Part shown: positions 11,969 through 29,049 of the stretch, piece after piece
Numbering within the stretch: the stretch's first letter is position 1
Layout of the letters: every line of letters begins with the position of its first letter
Notes under the pieces: generated by a model
Database searches by the model: none
What the model was told of the DNA's origin: nothing
The model's input: only the letters and a program-made list of their open reading frames with translations
Made by a program: the position numbers and the translations under genes
Source: an uncultured Myxococcales bacterium
GTDB lineage: Bacteria > Myxococcota_A > UBA9042
Direction: 5' to 3'
Length of the DNA stretch: 64,000 nucleotides
Assembly (NCBI GenBank): GCA_937910235.1
Contig: CALENB010000329.1
Coordinates: 1-64,000, forward strand

Positions 11969-13003
11969 TCAATTACATCCGACGAGCTTCGGCTGGCCAC
12001 CCTGCTGCGTCAGCCAGGCCGCGGCGTCGTCGGCGGTGATGCCGGACGCACAGACTTGCAGGTCCCCCGCCATCTTCACCTGCGTGCCCAGCCACGTCAG
12101 CGCCGTGATGTTGGGCTGCGTCTTGAGGGTGAAGTGGCCGAGCGTCTTGAGCTTACCCAACGTGATCGAGGTGTTGCTAAGCAGTTGGTTGGCGTTGATC
12201 GTGAACTGCGACATCGCGGTCAGCATCGGCGCGCGCACCGACGCCAGCTTGGTGTTGGCCTGGATGAACAGCCCGTCGATGTTGTGGGCGCTCGGCAGGT
12301 TGATCTCGGCGCAGGCGTTTTTGTCGATCTGCAGGCCGCCGAAGAAGTTGCCCACCGACGCAAACGTCACGCTGGTGAGGTTGTAGTTGTTGTTCACGCC
12401 GACGGCGCCCGAGACGTCTTCCAGCTTGCCAAAGGTCTTCCAGGTTGTGGCGGCGTTGTTGGAGACCTGGAGCGCGCCCACCTGCCGCAGCGCGTCAAAT
12501 CCGGCGATCGACACCGCCTTGGTGTTGCCTGTGATCTGGAGGCTCACCTTGATGGTGCTCAGCTTCGGGAACACCGGCAGGTGGCCCAGCTGCGTCGCGC
12601 TGATCAGCACGCTCTGGTCGACGTCGGTGAGGTTCGGCAACGGCGACACCGCCGGCCCTGCACCAGCGCCCCGGATCACGAGGACACCCTGGATGCGACG
12701 CACCGCGGCGAGCTGCTTGTAGGTCGGAAAATCAACGTTGATGGTCACTTTGCCGCTGATGGTGCACTCGCCCGCGTACGTCGTCGTAGCGCCCGCCACG
12801 GTTAGGTTGACGGAGTTCTGGTAGACCCCCGCTACACACGCCGTCGTGCCGCCACCCGATCCGGGGCTGTCGTCCTTGATCAACGCCGGATCGATCGGCG
12901 GCGTGTCGAACTCGGGCAGCAAGCAGCCCGCGAAGGAGACGAGCAGGCAGGCGAGGCCGATGTGGCGGGCCAGCAGTTGGGATGTGTGGTGGTTAGAATG
13001 CAT
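11969..13003 (-). CDS. Leucine-rich/receptor-L-like repeat lipoprotein
   Basis: 344 aa from the ATG at 13003; the ORF track starts 23 codons earlier, inside the upstream gene. The lipobox is FAGC (CLLPEFD). After residue about 60 there are 20-25-residue repeats with LxxLxVxxN spacing, for example GFDALRQVGALQVSNN and FPKLSTIKVSLQITGN, plus FGKLEDVSGAVGVNNN. This pattern is typical of receptor-L/BspA-like parallel beta folds used for surface recognition. The gene overlaps the end of the upstream barrel gene by 11 bp, so it is translationally coupled and probably works with that barrel at the outer membrane. Confidence 0.8.
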   Translation of the reverse strand: MHSNHHTSQLLARHIGLACLLVSFAGCLLPEFDTPPIDPALIKDDSPGSGGGTTACVAGVYQNSVNLTVAGATTTYAGECTISGKVTINVDFPTYKQLAAVRRIQGVLVIRGAGAGPAVSPLPNLTDVDQSVLISATQLGHLPVFPKLSTIKVSLQITGNTKAVSIAGFDALRQVGALQVSNNAATTWKTFGKLEDVSGAVGVNNNYNLTSVTFASVGNFFGGLQIDKNACAEINLPSAHNIDGLFIQANTKLASVRAPMLTAMSQFTINANQLLSNTSITLGKLKTLGHFTLKTQPNITALTWLGTQVKMAGDLQVCASGITADDAAAWLTQQGGQPKLVGCN

Positions 13004-13796
13004 AGCCAAACCCCACCCGCGCGACGCTCTCGTAGGCGCGCCGCTGCGTGCTACCAAAGGGATCTTGTCCATCGAAGAGCGTCTTGCTGTCGTTGCCGCC
13101 TGTCTCCAGGTCCGCGACGCGCTGGCTGGTCATCCACTCGCCAAAGACGAGGAACGAGCCGCCGCGGCGCCGACCGGCTTTGAAGTAGACCGTCGCGCGC
13201 GCGGCGGCTTTGTTGACGCTGTCGTTGGTGTCGGCCACCGACGCGCTCGCCACCCCCGGCCACCAGGTGTAGGTGCCCTCGACCCCGATGCGGTGGTTGA
13301 TCCGCACCGACGCGTTGAGCTTGAGGTAGGTGTAGGCGACCTGCCAGTTGATGCCAAAACCCGGCGAAAAGCCGAGCTGGATGCGGTCACCCGTGCCACC
13401 GAAGAGGCGCCACAGCGTCACGGGGAAACCGACGGCGAGGTGCATCGGAAAGCCGAGGTCGCCCAGCACCGTGTCATTGTCGTTGTAGCCGATGCCGTCC
13501 CAGCCGAGGCCCATGTCGAACTCGATGCCAGCCAAGTTGCCGAGCGGCGAGCTCTTGCCGAAGTAGGCGCCCGCGAACTGGAAGTAGACCTGGCTGCCGG
13601 ATTTGGCCCACCGCTCGCCGCGGCCGATGTAGCCCTCGACACGCAGGTCGTGGGTGCCGCCGATCCAGCCGATGCCCTCTTTGGCTTCGGCGCGCTGCGT
13701 GGGAAGACAGATCGCTGTCAGCAGCAGGGCGCAGAGCAGGCCGCGCAGCGGGCGCACGGCTCGTGTGAGGTGTCGTGTGAGGTGTCGTGTGATCAT
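12993..13796 (-). CDS. Outer-membrane beta-barrel protein
   Basis: 267 aa from the ATG at 13796, preceded by AGGAGGTGG. A signal peptide ends near QRAEAK. The rest consists of alternating amphipathic strands with aromatic girdles (VYFQFAGAYFG, IGVEGTYTWWPG). It ends in VGFGYAF, a C-terminal Phe that serves as the BAM recognition signal. The Arg-His-Leu-Thr repeat at the N-terminus comes from a short direct repeat in the DNA. It lies between a broken barrel gene and the L-repeat lipoprotein and forms an operon with them. Substrate or role is unknown. Confidence 0.8.
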   Translation of the reverse strand: MITRHLTRHLTRAVRPLRGLLCALLLTAICLPTQRAEAKEGIGWIGGTHDLRVEGYIGRGERWAKSGSQVYFQFAGAYFGKSSPLGNLAGIEFDMGLGWDGIGYNDNDTVLGDLGFPMHLAVGFPVTLWRLFGGTGDRIQLGFSPGFGINWQVAYTYLKLNASVRINHRIGVEGTYTWWPGVASASVADTNDSVNKAAARATVYFKAGRRRGGSFLVFGEWMTSQRVADLETGGNDSKTLFDGQDPFGSTQRRAYESVARVGFGYAF

Positions 13797-13805
13797 CCCC
13801 ACCTC

Positions 13806-14774
13806 CTAAAATCGCGCGCCGGCGGAGGCGACAAAGCCAAACACGCCGGACGTCGGGGATGGGGTCGTGGCCGCGGCCTCGACGTAGACGCGCTGCAGCA
13901 GCGCGGCGGTGACCCCGATGCGCAGCGGGAAGCCCGCGACCTGGGCCACGCGCGTGTTCTTGCCAACCTGCGACCCCGTAATGTCGGCGCCGCGGGAGTG
14001 ACCGAACCAGTTCCACTCCCACAGGCCGTAGAGGTTGACCGGCCCGACCGCCTAGGACACGCGAAACGGCATGCCGAAGTAGCTCCAATCGGTGATGAGG
14101 TACTTGCCCTCGCTCGCGACGCCGCTCTTGACGCTGCCGAACCCCATGCCGATCTCGAACATGCCCTTGGCTCGCGCGCCGCGGCCGGAGAGCTTGATGC
14201 CGCCCATCATCATGGTGACCTTGTAGCCGCTGGCGTCGCCGCCGAGGTTGCGGGAGTAGATCTCCAGGTCGAAGCTCTGCCCGGGCGAGGTCACCATGTT
14301 CGTCGCGCTGTTGCTCGCCGAGCGCTGCATCGCCTGTTTTTCAGCCTCGCTGTAGTACGTCGTTCGCGTGTAGCGCATGTTGCCTTCGGTCCAGCTCGTC
14401 GACGACTTTGGCCCCGACGCCGCGGCGGCTGCGGTCAAGATCCGCAAGATGCCGAGGATCGTGCCGGTGATGAAGCCGTTGCGCTCGTAGTAGCGGAACC
14501 CGACCGCCTCGACCGCGAGCGAGCTGCCCGTCGACCAGGCGTTGAAGTCGCCGCTGCGGTTGTACGTCAGCCCCATCGTGGCGCTGTAGCTGTGCAGGAG
14601 GCCGCGGCCATCCTCCACGAGCGACAGCCGCGATCGCGCCGCGGCGATGGACGGCGTCACCGAGCTCGACAGCACCAGCAGCAGCGTCACTAGCGCGGCG
14701 CGGCGCCAGCGGCGAGGTCGCGGAACCTCTCGCGCGGCGCTGGTCTTGTGCCCCGCAGGCGCGGACGTGTTCAT
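13806..14774 (-). pseudogene. Outer-membrane barrel gene interrupted by an in-frame TAG
   Basis: ATG at 14774 with GGGGAGGAGAG upstream. It has a signal peptide (LVTLLLVLSSSVTPSIAAA) and then strand-rich sequence. The annotated ORF stops at TAG 14052-14054 after GMPFRVS. The same frame continues without a break for another 81 codons (AVGPVNLYGLWEWNWFG ... GVFGFVASAGARF) to a TAG at 13806. This continuation has the strand pattern and terminal Phe of an outer-membrane barrel, and its stop sits directly at the Shine-Dalgarno of the next gene. The natural gene therefore spans 13806-14774. The amber codon is either a recent nonsense mutation or a readthrough site. Confidence 0.78.
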
Positions 14775-14961
14775 CTCTCCTCCCCTTCGCCCAGGCGCGC
14801 GCCGGCGACCCGAAGGCGCGTGACCCTGGCCGCGACGTGTGACATCCCTGAATAACGCGACTGATAGTCGAACACATGGATCGCAAGTCAAGAACCACGG
14901 CGCGTTATCGTTCGCCACCTCGTCTTGGTGCATCGTGGTACGCACGAACGTCGGCGACGAT

Positions 14962-19375: not shown

Positions 19376-22300
19376 ATGTCCAATTTGCGCTGTCGTGCCG
19401 ACCGGGCCCGCTGGCTCGTGATGGGCGTTGCGTTGTGCGGCGTGTTCGTCGCCTGTGATGATGATCCCACGGACAAGGGGGTTCAAGGTGACGCGGTGAC
19501 GCGGTGGCGCTCGACGTCGGCGCTGGCGACGTCGTCGTCGGCCTCGACTCAGCGGCGGCGCTCGACGTCGTCGCTGACGTGGCAGTCGCGGACGTCGCCG
19601 TCGCCGATGTGGTCGCCGCCGATGTGGTCGCCGCCGATGTCGTCGCCGACGGTGCCTCCAGCCAAGACGGCGCCCTGGCCGACGGCGCGACCGACGACGC
19701 CGCCACGGAAGACACCGGCTCTGGCGACACGGGCTTGGGAGAGGTCGTCGATCTAGACGCCAACCCGGTGGCTTGCAGCGCGAGCAGCGAGTGCCCGCTG
19801 CCCTCCGTGCCCTGTCAGCAGCGCCTCTGCCAAGCGGGCAGCTGCGTCTTTGTCGCCGCGCCTGACGCGTTGGTGTGCAACATCGGCTCCGCCTGCATCA
19901 CCAAGAGCGCCTGTAGCGCCGGAAAATGCGTCACCCTCGCCGAGAAGAGCTGCGACGACGGCAGCGCGTGCACCGAGGACAACTGCAAGATCTCCACCGG
20001 CCTCTGCACCCACACGCCGACCAAAGCCGGGTTTGTGTGTGATGACGGCAACAAGTGCACCAAGACCGCCGAGTGCTTCAGCGGGGTCTGCGTGGCCCAG
20101 GGATTTTTCGCCTGTGACGACGGCAACCCCTGCACGACCGACTTCTGCGATCCCAAGACCGGCAAATGCCTCGCAAAACCGGGCTCCAAGGGCACCGCGT
20201 GCGACGACGGCAACACCTGCTCCTCCGGCGATACGTGCAGCGAGTTCGGCCTATGTGTTGGCGGCAAGAACACGTGCAGCTGCTCGACGACCGCCGATTG
20301 TGCGCTCAAGGAAGACGGCGACGCCTGCAACGGCACGCTCTTCTGTGAACCGACGTCGGGTACGTGTCAGGTCAACCAATCGACGGTGGTGGCCTGCCCT
20401 AAGCTCGCCAGCGGCGCGTGCCAGACGACCGCCTGCAACCCGGCGACGGGCAAGTGTCAGGTCGGTGATGTCGCTAACGGCGCCTCCTGCGACGACGGCA
20501 ACCCGTGCACCACCCCCGACGAATGCGACCAGGGCGACTGCAAAGGCGTGAACAACACGTGTGGTTGTTTGAGCGACGCCGAGTGCAAGGGGCAGCAGTC
20601 CGGCGACCTGTGCGCGGGGCAGCTATTTTGCGACAAAAGCGCGGCGCCGTTCACCTGCAAGGTCAACCCGACGACCGTCGTGGTCTGCGCCACGGCGAAG
20701 GACTCCTACTGCAGCAAGAACACCTGCGAGCCGACCACTGGGCTGTGCAAACCGGTCGCCGAGCCCAACAAAGCGCCCTGCGAAGATGGCGACACGTGCA
20801 CCACCGGAGATTATTGCCTCGCCGGCAACTGCAAGGCGGGCACGGACACGTGCAAGTGTGGCGTCGACAGCGACTGCGCCACGCTCGAGGACGGCAGCCT
20901 CTGCAACGGCACGCTGTTCTGCAATATCGGCACCGGCCAGTGTGAGCTGAACCCGGCGACCGTGGTGCAGTGCCCCACGCTCAACGACACGTATTGCATC
21001 CAGACTGTGTGCGAGCCCAAGACCGGCAAGTGCCAGATGACCGCGCAACACGAGACCAAGGCTTGCGACGACGGCAACGTCTGCTCGGAAGGGGAGATCT
21101 GTAGCAAGGGCGCCTGCACGGGCGGCACCAACGTCTGCAAATGCACCGTAGACGCCGACTGCAAAGACGACGGCAACCTGTGTAATGGCGTCTCGTTCTG
21201 CGACAAGAAGGTCGGCCAGTGCAAACACAACCCGTCGACAGAGATCACCTGCCCGAGCGTGGACGATGACCTCTGCTCGGTGAACACGTGCCTCGCCAAG
21301 ACCGGCCAGTGCAAAGTGCTGCCGCGCAACACCGGCCTGGCGTGCGACGCGGACGGCAACGGCTGCACGAAGAACGACGTCTGCCAGGGCGGCACGTGCG
21401 TCGCCGACGTGAACACCTGCCAATGCCAGAAAGATTTGGATTGCGGCAAGTTTGAGGCCGACGACCTGTGTTCGAAGCTGTACTGCGAGCCGAAGAGCCA
21501 TCAGTGCAAGCCCAACCCCAATACGCAGGTGGTGTGCCTGAAGTCGTCCGACGACCTGTGCGCGGCGAACGTGTGCCAAAAAGCGACCGGTAAGTGCGCT
21601 ATGGAGCCGAGAAATCAAGGTCAGGCGTGCGACGCGGACGGCAGCAACTGCACGGTGGGGGATGCGTGTGACAAGGGTTCGTGCACCGCTGGCACCAACG
21701 CGTGTGGCTGCACGAAGGACGCGGACTGTAAGAGCAAGGAGGACGGCAACCCCTGCACCGGCACGCTGATCTGCGGCAACTCAAAGAAGTGCCAGGTCAA
21801 CCCGGCGACGGTGGTGCTGTGCCAAGCGGGCTCGGATACGTCGTGCATCAAGAACACGTGTGACGCCAAGACGGGCCAATGCGCGCTGCTGCCCATCAAC
21901 TACAAGTCGCCGTGCGGCAAGGGCACGTTGTGCTCTGGTGTGCCGCTATGTGATGAGAAGGGCGGCTGCAAAGGCGGCGTCGTGGTGGACTGTGACGACC
22001 ACTCGCCCTGTACGGTCGACAGCTGTGATGACTACAAGGGCTGCCAGTACAAGGACGTGACGGGCGTGAGCTGCGACGACGGCAGCGTCTGCACGACCAA
22101 AGACCTCTGCGTGAAGGGCAAATGCACCGGCCAGTCGACGCCGTGTTTGGGCGGCACGCCGTGCACCCTCGACAGCTGTCATCCGCTCAAAGGCTGCCAA
22201 TACGAGGCCAAGACCGGCAGCTGCGACGACGGCAACAAGTGCACCGATCAGGAGAGCTGCGTCGGCAAGTACTGCATCGGCACGGCGATCGCCTGCAATG

Positions 22301-25300
22301 ACGGCAACCTGTGCACGACCGACAGCTGCAGCCCCACCAATGGCTGCGTGTTCACGGCCAACAGCTTTGTGTGCAACGACGGCGACCTGTGCACCAAGCA
22401 GGACGGCTGCAAGAGCGGCAACTGCGTTGGGTTGCCGCTGGTGGTCACGGAGGACTGCGCCGACAGCAACCCCTGCACCGATGAGTCCTGCAACGCCCTG
22501 AAGGGCTGCTTGTGGATCAAGACCACCAAGCTCTGTGATGACGGCGACCCTTGCTCGACGGGCGACATCTGCGCCAACGGCGTCTGCCAGAAGGGCGACG
22601 GCGCCAAATGCGACGACAAGAACGGCTGCACCGCCGACGCTTGCGACCCGAAAACTGGGGTTTGCAGCAACCTGCCGCTTGGCAGCACCGTGACCTGTGA
22701 CGACGGCGACCCCTGCACGCTGGGCGACGTCTGCGGCGGTGGCGCGTGCAAGAGCGGCAAGGTCAACACCTGCGACGACGGCGACGGTTGCACCAGCGAC
22801 TCGTGTAGCCCCACCAGCGGCTGCAAACACACGTTTTCCTCCGGCGGCACATGCGATGACGGCAACAAATGCACCAGCGATGACGGCTGCGTGCAGGGCA
22901 AATGCACGGGCACGGTGATCAAGTGCACCGGCGGCTCGGCTTGCACGGTCGACAGCTGTCACCCGCTGCTGGGCTGCGTCTACACGCCGGTCGATGAGCT
23001 CTGCGACGACGGCAACCCCTGCACTGCGAGCGATGCGTGCAAGAACGGCGTGTGCGTCGGCGTCGCGGCCACCTGCAATGACAAGAACCCGTGCACGGAC
23101 GACACCTGCGCCGCCAAGGTCGGCTGCGTCTTCACGGCCAACAGCGCGAGCTGCGATGACGACGACCTGTGCACCAAGCAGGACGGCTGCGCGGGTGGCA
23201 AATGCGTCGGTTTGGCGCTGCAGCTCACGGTGGATTGCGATGACGGCATCTTCTGCACCGACGACCTCTGCAGCAAGACCGTCGGGTGCTACCACACCAA
23301 ACCGAGCAAGCCCTGCAGCGACGATGATCTGTGCTCCACCGGCGACACCTGTAAAGGCGGCGCGTGTGTGGGCGGCACCGGGAACCTGTGCGACGACGGC
23401 AACAAATGCACGCTCGACAGCTGCACCAAGGGTAAGTGCACGTTTGCTATCCCGCCGCTCTATTATCAGTGCGACGACGGCGATCCATGCACGCTGGATT
23501 CACGCTGCGAGCTGGGCGTCTGCTACACATCGACGGCCGGTAAGCCGAACCCGAAGTACAACGCGTGCCCGATCCCCAAGGGCAACAGTGGCTACAACCA
23601 AGCCGCCAACTTCAAGACGTGGTGGGCGACGTGCTGCGACGCGGACGGCAAGTGCTGCGCTAGCGCGGACGATCGGTGCCATCAGAAGGACCTGGTGTTT
23701 GTTCAAGCGTGTAAGAACTGCGCGACGCACCTGAACGCCGTCTCGAACAAACTCAACTGCAACGACAGCAACCCCTGCACCAACGACACCTGTGTGGCCG
23801 GCAAGGGCTGTGTGCATACACCCGTCAGCGGCGCGCCGAGCTGCTCCGACGGCAAGCCGTGCACTGAAAAAGCCGCGTGTAAGGACAGCTCCTGCCAGAA
23901 GACCGTCGACAAGGTCTGCGACGACAACAACCCGTGTACGACCGATGTCTGTATCGCCGGCAAGGGCTGCAGCGCCGCGACGCTGCCGGACGGCGTGGTC
24001 TGCGAGAAGGGCGGCGCGGCGACCTGCAGTACACAAGGGGTGTGTAAGTCGGGGACGTGTGACGGCGCCACCGCGCGACCGTGGACCATCGCGACGCCGG
24101 GCAACCTGCGCAACTGCACAGAGATCGCCGCGATGAGTGATAATGGCTGGCTGCTCGTCGGCATGAAAGAGGTCGACGGGGTCAATCTGCCAGCGTGGAT
24201 GCGGGTGCGCTACAACGGTTCTGTGCTGTGGGAGCGCACCCTCGACCACAAGGCCGAGGGGCAGCTGCTCGGCATGAGCGACGACGGCAAGGGCGCGTTT
24301 TCGGCCGTAGGGCGCACCAAAGACAACACGCTCGGCGGCAATGAGGGGCTCTTTGTGCGCTTTGGCGCCGATCAGCAGGTCACGCATCAGGTCGTGTTCG
24401 CCGGTTTGAAAGAGGAGCTGCTGCAGGGCATCGCCACCACGAAGGACGGCGGCCATGTGCTGGTTGGGCAGACCTCGTCAAAGGGCAGCGGTGGCGACGA
24501 GGGTTGGCTGATTCGGCTCGACGCCAAAGATCAGGTGGTGTGGGAGAACGTGGTCGGCTCCGTGGTGGATGACCAGCTCTTCGCCGTGGCGCTGCGCAGC
24601 GATGGCGGCGTCTTTGCGGCCGGAAACTCGGGCAACTACGCCGGTTGGCTGCTGCGCTACGACGCCGCCGGCAAGCTGGTCGGCGAGAAGCGGCATGGCG
24701 ACAGCAAGACCAACACCTATCGCTTCGATGGCATCAAGCTGTGGTCGGATACCAGCCTCAGCACCACGGGCGACCGCCTGCGGACCTGGAACGACTCGCT
24801 CGACGCCGCCAGCGGCTTCACCATCAACAGCGCCGTCGCCGACATCGTGACGCGACCCAAGGGTGGCTATGGGCTGCTCAATGGCGGTATCCGCATCACC
24901 GACAGCAACCTGGGCGTGACGTGGACGGCGAAGACCAACCCGGGCGGTCAGCGCCGCGTCCTCGCGCCAGATGATGACAGCCTGATCGTCATGACCTCGG
25001 CCACCTGCGGGTTGGTTCGCACCGACGGCTTTGGCAACGTGACCTGCGGCGAGTCAGGCGAGTGTTACTTGAAGAGCTGGGCCGATTGCCAGGACACGGA
25101 CGCGTGCACGAAGGCGGAGACGTGCGGCGCGGGCAAGTGCAGCAACGTCACGACCGTCTGCAACGACAACAAGGTGTGCACGTCTGACAAATGCGACAGC
25201 GCAAGCGGCAAGTGTATCTACACGCCGACCGATGGCGCCGCCTGCAGCTCGACCGACAGCGAGTGCGCGATCGAGGGCGAGTGTCTGGCTGGGGTTTGTT

Positions 25301-28300
25301 ATAACGACAACGTCGTGGCGTGGACCCTGCAGTTTCTGCCCTTCTACGGGTGCTGTGGCGACAACAACAACAGCAGCAACGAGTACCAAGGCACGCGGCT
25401 GATGGCCGTGGCGCCTCGCGCCGATGGCCAGCTCTTTGTTGCCGGCCCCGGGTATAACCGCAACAACACCAACTCGCTGTACGGCAAGCTGGTTCAGGGC
25501 ACTGCGGGTGTGCCGGGCAAGTACAACTCCACGAGCGGGGCGCGCTACAGCTACTTCGACCGCACCGGCGACAGCAACAGCACGTGGGCGACGGACTTCA
25601 GCGTCGTGGGTGCCGTCTCGTTCAAGAACCTCGTGAGCGCCGGTTTGTCGCGCTACAAGCTCCACAGCAGCGAGACCAAGTATGAGTGGCTCACGATGCT
25701 CCGCCTCAACAACGGCAACGGCAAGAGCCTGCGCCTCGGAGGCCACGACACCGAGCCGGTCGATATGGAGGCGACAGGCGACTACACAGCGGCGTCGCTG
25801 GCGCGACACAAGGACGCCGGCAAGTGGGCGACGGCGGTGTATTTCACCCAACACGGCGACGCCAACTCGCCGCTCGGCTGGGACTATCCGCCCAAGTTGC
25901 TGGGCACGGCGGTGCATCACATCGGCGATGACGACAAACCTGTCGGTCTCAGCCCGGTCGAGGACGGCAAGAGCGTCGTCGTCGCCGGTGATGTGCATAC
26001 GAGCGCTGACAAGACTTGGCGCCACTACGCCGCGCGCATCGGCACCGACGGCAAGCTGATCTGGCAGAAGTCTTGGGATGTGGCGAGCTACTCGGCGCTC
26101 AAGGCCGTGGGCTGGAGCCAGCTCGGCGTCATCTTGACGGGGCAGAAGCGCGTCGTCATCTCCGGGACGACGGCCTACTTCATCTGGCTGCGACGGCTCG
26201 ATTCGAGCGGCAACCTGCTCTGGGATAAGTCGTTGACGCCCAGCACCTACGACAACTACGGCTGGGCGGTGGTGCCCAAGCCGAGCGGTTTCGCGGTTGG
26301 CGCGGTGATCGAGAACCAGAACGCGCTGCTGCGCTTCGACAACGCTGGCGCTATGACCGGCGACAAGCGCTTTGGGGGTTGGACGGACAAGCGGCTGGAG
26401 GACTGGAAAGCCCTGCCAGACGGCTTTGTAGCGGCCGGCTGGAAGCAGTCGGGCTCTTCCTACCAAAACAAGTGGAAGCAGAACGGCTTCATCATCCGCA
26501 CCGACCCTTTCGGCAACGCGCCGTGCGACAAGGTCGGCAAGTGCATGGGCAAGAAGTTCAGCGACTGCGACGACAACAATCCCTGCACCGGCGACAGCTG
26601 CGACGCCGCGGTGGGCTGCATTCACTTCGGCGTGAGCGAGGGCGTTGGCTGCCAAGATGGCGATCCGTGTACGGCGGGGAGCGCCTGCGCCAACGGCAAG
26701 TGCGCGGGCGCCACGCCGTTGGCCCAGGCGGCGGCGTGTGATGACGGCGACGCCTGCACCAAGAGCTCAAAGTGCAACTGGGCCAACAAGTGTGTGGGGA
26801 CGGCCGTCTGTGACGACGGCAAGCCGTGCACCGCGGACGCCTGCAAGGACGGTCAGTGCACCCATTCGGCGATCAAAGCGGGCGACGCGTGCGACGACGG
26901 CGACTACTGCACCGAGACGACGACGTGCGACGCGCAAGCGGCGTGCAGCGGCGGCAAGCAGGTCTGCAAAGAGACCGTCGTGATCGACTAGCGCTTCAAG
27001 TGCAGCGGCGACTACAGCAAGTGGTCGTTCTCCGACAATAGCGGCACCCCCGTCGCGGTGGCGTGGGCGGTCGACAAGACGCCGAGCACGCCGACGCCGA
27101 AGGCTGAGGACTGCACGCTCAACCTCAATGACGGCACGAGCTACAACGCAGCTGGCGTGACCTTTAAGTTCAACAATCAGGCGGCGCCGTGGTCGCTGCC
27201 TGCGCTCGGGCAGGTCAAGGCCAGCCTGTGGACGTGGTTCGATGGCGACACCACGGCCGAGACCACGCACTGGCTCCGCGTGCGGATGGGCGACACCGTC
27301 GTGACGACGTGGGACCTCAAGGCGAGCCCGATCGCGGCCAAGCAGTGGGTGCAGCTAGAGGCTGATTTGACGGGCAAATCGCTGGCCGGATCGGCCTGGC
27401 TTGAGGGGGCGTTGCGGCCCGACAGCGCCGGTAACACCGGCGCCGGATGGTTCATTGACGGGGTGAAGATCGTGCATCGCGCACATCCGGATGGGCATCC
27501 TTGTGACTTCGACACCGACTGCAACGACGGCGACCAGTGCCGACCCGACCTGTGCATCAAGGGGCGCTGTGTCAACGACATCAAGCCTGGCCTGATCTGC
27601 GCGGACGGCAACGCGTGCACCGACAGCGACACCTGTGATGACAAGGGCGTCTGCCAGGCCGGCAAGTCCAAGGTCTGCACCGACAGCAACGCCTGCACCG
27701 ACGACACGTGCGATCCCGCGACGGGCTGCATCTTCACGGCGACGACGGATGGCAAGACCTGCGACGACGGCAGCAGCTGCACCGTCGGCGAGAGCTGCCA
27801 AGGCGGGCTCTGTTTGGGCAAGGGCAAGTGCGACGATGACAACCCGTGCACGCTCAACGCCTGCGCGGCCGACGGCACGTGCTCCGCGAAGGCGTTGACC
27901 GATGGCATGTCATGCGATGGCGGTGGGACGTGCAAGCTCGGCGTGTGTGTCGAGAGCACCAAGCTGGGCTGGGCAAAACAGATCTCGGGCAACGGCCATC
28001 GGTACGCCGTCCTGCGTAACAATGGCGAGGTCTGGGGCTGGGGACTGAACAATGGTGGGCAGCTCGGCGATGGCACCAAGACGGCGAGCAGCAAGCCCAT
28101 CAAGGCCTTTGTATCCGGCGCTATCGACGTTTGTGCCGGCGAGTATCTCTCCTGCGCGCTCACGGTTGAGTCGGGTGTTCGAAACGCGCGTTGCTGGGGT
28201 TTCAACCAGTACGGCATGGGCGGCGCCGTCAACAGCGGAGTCATGGCGAGCGCTACGCTCCTGCGCGGCATGCAGCATCTGCGCGACTTGGACACCGAGG

Positions 28301-29049
28301 ATAGGAACACCTGCGGCGTTCGGATGGATGGCACGGTGTGGTGCGTGGGCCGAGGGTACTACGGTGTGCTCAATGGCGTGGCGAATACCCCGGACTCGTA
28401 CCTCGCCGTCCAGGTTCCCGGGATCGCAGAGGCGGTGCAGGTCGCGGTGAGCAGTGACTCGGCGTGTGCGCTCAAAATCGACGGGACTGTCTGGTGTTGG
28501 GGTAGAAACAGCTACGCCGGCATGGGTACGGGCATCGCGGATAGCGATGTTCATAAGCCGTCCCAAGTGGCGACGCTCAGCGGCGTGCGACAACTCGCAG
28601 GCGGCAAGCTCGCGTACTGTGCGGTCAAGTTCGACGGGACGGCTTGGTGTTGGGGCACCGGTAGGTACGGCAGCCTCGGCGATGGCAACACGTCCGGCGG
28701 ATCGAGCTACAGCGGACCGGCGCCCGTGAAGGATCTCACCGCTGCAGTTGAGGTCAGCATTAGCCTCTTCGTCGCTTGCGCCCGGCGCTCAAGCGGCGCC
28801 GTGTCGTGTTGGGGTTCCGGTGGCAATGGCAGCATCGGCAACGGCGAGAACACGACGCAGGGCACGGCTGGGACGACGGTCAAGGGTGTGACCGACGCGG
28901 TGGCTGTGCATGTCGACGAATACTCGGCCTGCGCGGTGACAGCCGACGGCTCTACGTGGTGCTGGGGCGCCGCCTTGCACGGCCAGCTCGGTGATGGCCA
29001 GACCACCACCAACAGCAATGAGCCTGTGCTCGTGACGGGGTCGAAGTGA
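19376..29049 (+). pseudogene. Giant Cys-repeat/propeller/RCC1 lipoprotein, broken by a frameshift and an amber codon
   Basis: The ORF track lists two pieces (19504-26991 and 27058-29049), but they belong to one gene. The true start is the ATG at 19376: a lipobox LCGVFVAC is followed by DDDPTDKG, matching the intact paralog downstream (SACSEDPTDKG). An 8-bp tandem duplication at 19490-19505 shifts the frame; removing one copy joins the signal peptide to the Asp/Ala-rich linker. The frame then encodes dozens of CDDGNPCTxDxC repeats, two propeller regions (the second opening with FLPFYGCCGDNNN), and further Cys repeats. It hits TAG at 26989-26991, and the same frame continues with a jelly-roll-like region, Cys repeats and RCC1 repeats (GEVWGWGLNNGGQLGDG). 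The aligned residue in the paralog is Leu. It is about 3,220 codons when repaired, and probably inactive or phase-variable. Confidence 0.85.
19490..19505. repeat. 8-bp tandem duplication causing a frameshift
   Basis: GACGCGGT occurs twice in a row. With one copy the reading frame runs from the lipoprotein signal into the long ORF as GDAVALDVGAG; with two copies it is out of frame. Confidence 0.9.

Follow-up and report, generated by a model that had tools for sequence, protein, structure and literature searches.

A probable recent nonsense mutation in a repeatedly inactivated barrel-like gene of an uncultured Myxococcota genome

Small outer-membrane beta-barrels, such as NspA, the transmembrane domain of OmpA, OmpW and OmpX, are strand-rich proteins that carry a C-terminal Phe. 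Insertion through BAM uses the C-terminal strand together with its final aromatic residue. Here we describe a premature stop in a gene whose product resembles these proteins in its predicted fold class, predicted strand-richness and terminal Phe. The gene, called gene 1, is the first of a small surface-protein operon in the metagenome assembly of an uncultured Myxococcales bacterium (the source genome). The window is the whole stretch of contig that was analysed, 64,000 nucleotides in length, and the features of the locus are listed in Table 1.

When compared with barrels of the NspA, OmpA, OmpW and OmpX type, the gene 1 product is larger, with about 12 predicted strands and helical inserts, and no sequence match to it was found in Pfam, NCBIfam or PDB. 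As far as these library searches go, its exact family is undescribed. The AlphaFold model of the read-through protein, of modest confidence (pLDDT 61), is strand-rich; in it, codon 241 falls late in a long strand and about four more strands follow. Fold comparison with PDB gave NspA, OmpA, OmpW, OMPLA and OmpX as the best matches of the model, with low TM-scores. The original prediction had taken gene 1 for an outer-membrane barrel gene, and the predicted fold agrees with it. With its signal-peptide-like N-terminus and terminal Phe also considered, the product likely belongs to the outer-membrane barrel class. The second protein of the operon is also barrel-like, and no Pfam or NCBIfam match was found for it.

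Table 1. Features of the gene 1 operon and a second interrupted gene of the same contig.
Feature	Position	Strand	Remarks
Gene 1	13809..14774	(-)	outer-membrane beta-barrel-like; 322 codons if codon 241 is read through; signal-peptide-like N-terminus; C-terminal ...GARF
Shine-Dalgarno-like GGGGAGGAG	14777..14785	(-)	intact, just 5' of the gene 1 ATG; read directly
Gene 1 start ATG	14774	(-)	from sequence and translation
Premature TAG, codon 241 of gene 1	14054..14052	(-)	Tyr in both same-genus orthologs and eight other copies
81 codons of gene 1 after the TAG	13809..14051	(-)	last predicted strands and terminal Phe; purifying selection persists
Normal terminal TAG of gene 1, codon 323	13808..13806	(-)	falls within the gene 2 Shine-Dalgarno (TAGGAGG)
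Gene 2	12993..13796	(-)	second barrel-like protein, ends ...GFGYAF; ATG at 13796, in-frame GTG upstream at 13802
Gene 3	11969..13003	(-)	lipoprotein-like; Pfam Receptor L domain match
Second in-frame TAG	26989..26991	(+)	13 kb from the gene 1 TAG
Gene interrupted by the second TAG	~19504 to 29049	(+)	

The amber codon within gene 1 and the 81 codons downstream of it, with Phe as the final residue, were both confirmed in the sequence and its translation. Past codon 241 the gene ends in ...GVFGFVASAGARF (also given as ...SGVFGFVASAGARF), and the second TAG then follows. This terminal stop lies within the Shine-Dalgarno of gene 2, in agreement with the claim that the two abut, and the same TAGGAGG overlap occurs in five relatives (G003, G001, G014, G009 and G029). 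RNA folding of the junction between genes 1 and 2 gave no unusual structure (z-scores of -0.7 and +1.0).

Gene 1 is carried by 16 of the 53 related genomes, the source genome included. All the relatives named here were likewise assembled from metagenomes, and several carry the label Myxococcales. When the full-length orthologs were compared, none was found to stop at codon 241. The site is a sense codon in every other copy that covers it: the aligned codon is Tyr (TAC or TAT) in ten of sixteen copies, and Met, Leu or Val in the others. The premature TAG is seen in the source genome only. All 81 codons after it align to orthologs; for the two species of the same genus with gene 1, the identity is about 68-73%. 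Because of this alignment, and because interruptions are rare in the 1.30 Mb sampled, the downstream frame is not a chance one. Intact copies terminate in ...RF, keeping the terminal Phe. Among 379 genomes across the phylum there are ten more distant homologs, and no internal stop was found within their matched stretches. The view that the operon was built for the full protein stands, since the orthologs run past codon 241 and the stop/Shine-Dalgarno overlap is kept.

From these data, we infer that the TAG is probably real in the cells, a recent loss-of-function nonsense mutation in a gene that has been inactivated repeatedly. The substitution would have struck a conserved Tyr codon, and ribosomes would halt after 240 residues. 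From established outer-membrane biology, periplasmic degradation would be expected for a product without the final strands of the barrel and without the C-terminal Phe that serves as a signal for BAM. The truncated barrel, as was originally proposed, should not assemble. Translation of gene 2 would be expected to continue from its own strong Shine-Dalgarno.

The age of the stop was evaluated from the constraint on both sides of it. Pairwise dN/dS before the TAG is 0.29 against G003 and 0.19 against G001, and the values after it, 0.40 and 0.24 respectively, are similar. The source species has 4 unique amino-acid changes in the downstream part, compared with 6 and 7 in two intact relatives. Thus relaxed constraint past the TAG, which would mark an old lesion, was not found, nor was an excess of amino-acid changes. 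Since there is no decay, either the stop arose recently, or translation still covers the region, or the cells do not carry the stop at all, and the observation fits an error or readthrough equally well.

Genes in which an in-frame stop coexists with a dN/dS well below 1 are reported to be widespread in bacteria (Belinky et al. 2021, PMC7918605), and the ratios on both sides of the gene 1 TAG are of this kind. They could be explained if a near-cognate or suppressor tRNA read the TAG often enough to give a functional full-length barrel, and dN/dS below 0.5 in the downstream codons agrees with such readthrough. Unlike the cases in that study, however, the gene 1 stop exists in one species only, and recency suffices for the low ratio. 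No CUA anticodon was found among the 42 tRNA genes detected, in an assembly that is without some expected tRNAs, and the release factor 1 gene (prfA) is present and intact. TAG also terminates gene 1 itself and 257 of the 583 coding-like segments in 1.30 Mb of the source genome, which was sampled by stretches. We regard readthrough at a functional level as very unlikely. Recoding of the amber codon was ruled out by the same three observations: the intact release factor, the tRNA set and the common use of TAG as a terminal stop.

The source genome is not the only one in which gene 1 is damaged. It was found that 6 of the 17 copies of the gene 1 family are broken, by six different lesions. Besides the TAG at codon 241, G014 has a TAA at another position that is commonly Tyr, copy a of G018 has a TAA near the C-terminus, copy b of G018 has a frameshift plus a TAA, G016 has a one-base shift, and G013 has a 20-base tandem duplication. 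The gene appears split in G001 as well; this is a mere contig break and was left out of the count. The six broken copies all lie inside one clade of ten, and the well-supported branches of the tree force at least 4 changes between the broken and intact states. Gene 2 is intact at all 17 loci, whether gene 1 there is whole or broken, and no internal stop of gene 3 was found in its 12 relative matches, some of which are partial. The difference in breakage between genes 1 and 2 gives Fisher p-values of 0.018 overall and 0.011 within the ten-copy clade, and these come from small counts and from tests framed after the data were seen. The pattern in the relatives derives from metagenome assemblies. 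In these, gene 1 appears to have been broken independently at least five more times, mostly near the C-terminus, with gene 2 always kept. This suggests that cells can often do without the gene 1 protein, or that retaining it is costly.

The location of the lesions bears on whether the 240-residue form could be a functional shorter protein in itself. Nothing is damaged in its start, its Shine-Dalgarno or its first 240 codons, and in five of the six broken copies the first lesion comes late, roughly within the final quarter of the gene (p about 0.005, post hoc). Nevertheless, no ortholog stops at codon 241, the terminal Phe is kept in the intact copies, and the family lesions end at differing places and therefore define no common short form. 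A functional short protein is hardly credible on this evidence. In the reading that we prefer, a nonsense mutation in a repeatedly inactivated gene, the late lesions may instead be those that spare gene 2 from polarity.

An error of base calling or assembly, or a minority strain variant, with the living cells carrying the full gene, is unlikely but comes next in probability. The source assembly consists of 593 contigs, and the absence of decay past the TAG is what an error would give. A yardstick for the error rate was obtained from rpoB. About 174 kb of this essential gene was free of stops, and there was one stop in G039, which amounts to one per about 178 kb. The G039 stop is an in-frame TAA in a conserved stretch of the gene (ENQ-TAA-RIGLVRMERA; locus L221, G039:C418:2601-6900) and is likely an assembly error, so such errors do happen in these assemblies. 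With this stop included, the upper bound on the rate would give no more than about 0.4 lesions across the gene 1 set, compared to the 6 seen. Therefore errors do not explain the gene 1 family, although a lone case could still be one. A simple assembly error behind the whole family was rejected on the controls that rpoB and genes 2 and 3 provide. For the source TAG, an error is disfavored by the five other copies broken by unrelated lesions, of which one is the tandem duplication, and by the neighboring gene 2, which is without lesions in the same assemblies.

In the 1.30 Mb of the source genome, only two interruptions remained once those that could readily be put down to neighboring genes or to a likely selenocysteine codon were set aside. 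This probable selenocysteine codon is an in-frame TGA at L122:17960 (+), on contig C250, in a formate dehydrogenase-like gene (NNCHQCAAT-TGA-HAPTVAGL). The two interruptions are the gene 1 TAG and the second in-frame TAG in Table 1. The second one interrupts a very long Cys-rich protein of secreted type, in which Cys-rich repeats are followed by RCC1-like repeats; 685 further in-frame codons follow the TAG with no nearby ATG. The G003 ortholog is uninterrupted at this site. A substitution type shared by both TAGs was rejected, since the second aligns to Glu in that ortholog and not to Tyr.

That both clear interruptions sit in one contig is a point for the error explanation; given one of them, the chance that the other falls there is about 5%. 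Against this, both are in accessory surface or secreted genes and none is in a conserved gene, but two cases are few. The co-location may be due to chance, to relaxed selection on surface genes or to a locally poorer consensus. In general, telling a true in-frame stop from an error in a metagenome assembly takes either reads or a comparison across the gene family.

If the losses are real, the presence of six unrelated lesions among 10 related copies, with none in gene 2, would mean that gene 1 is under repeated selection for loss. Its barrel would then be a concrete candidate for a receptor that phages or predators of uncultured Myxococcota use. Loss may be favored now and then, for example when the exposed barrel serves as a putative phage or predator receptor, or the protein may be dispensable in some habitats. 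A stronger version, which we put forward only tentatively and hold to be doubtful, is that gene 1 is a contingency locus in this one clade: the barrel would be the receptor for a common phage or predator, many of the sampled populations would carry fresh loss alleles, and late lesions would be those that spare gene 2.

The mechanism of the gene 1 stop is ordinary, and its recurrence across the family is the interesting part. Recurrent loss is known for bacterial outer-membrane proteins such as porins and phage receptors, and gene 1 is similar to them in that the lesions are independent and differ from one another while the neighboring genes stay intact. Unlike those losses, the gene 1 pattern has no known phage or other selecting agent, and it is a between-species pattern in genomes of uncultured Myxococcota that were assembled from metagenomes.
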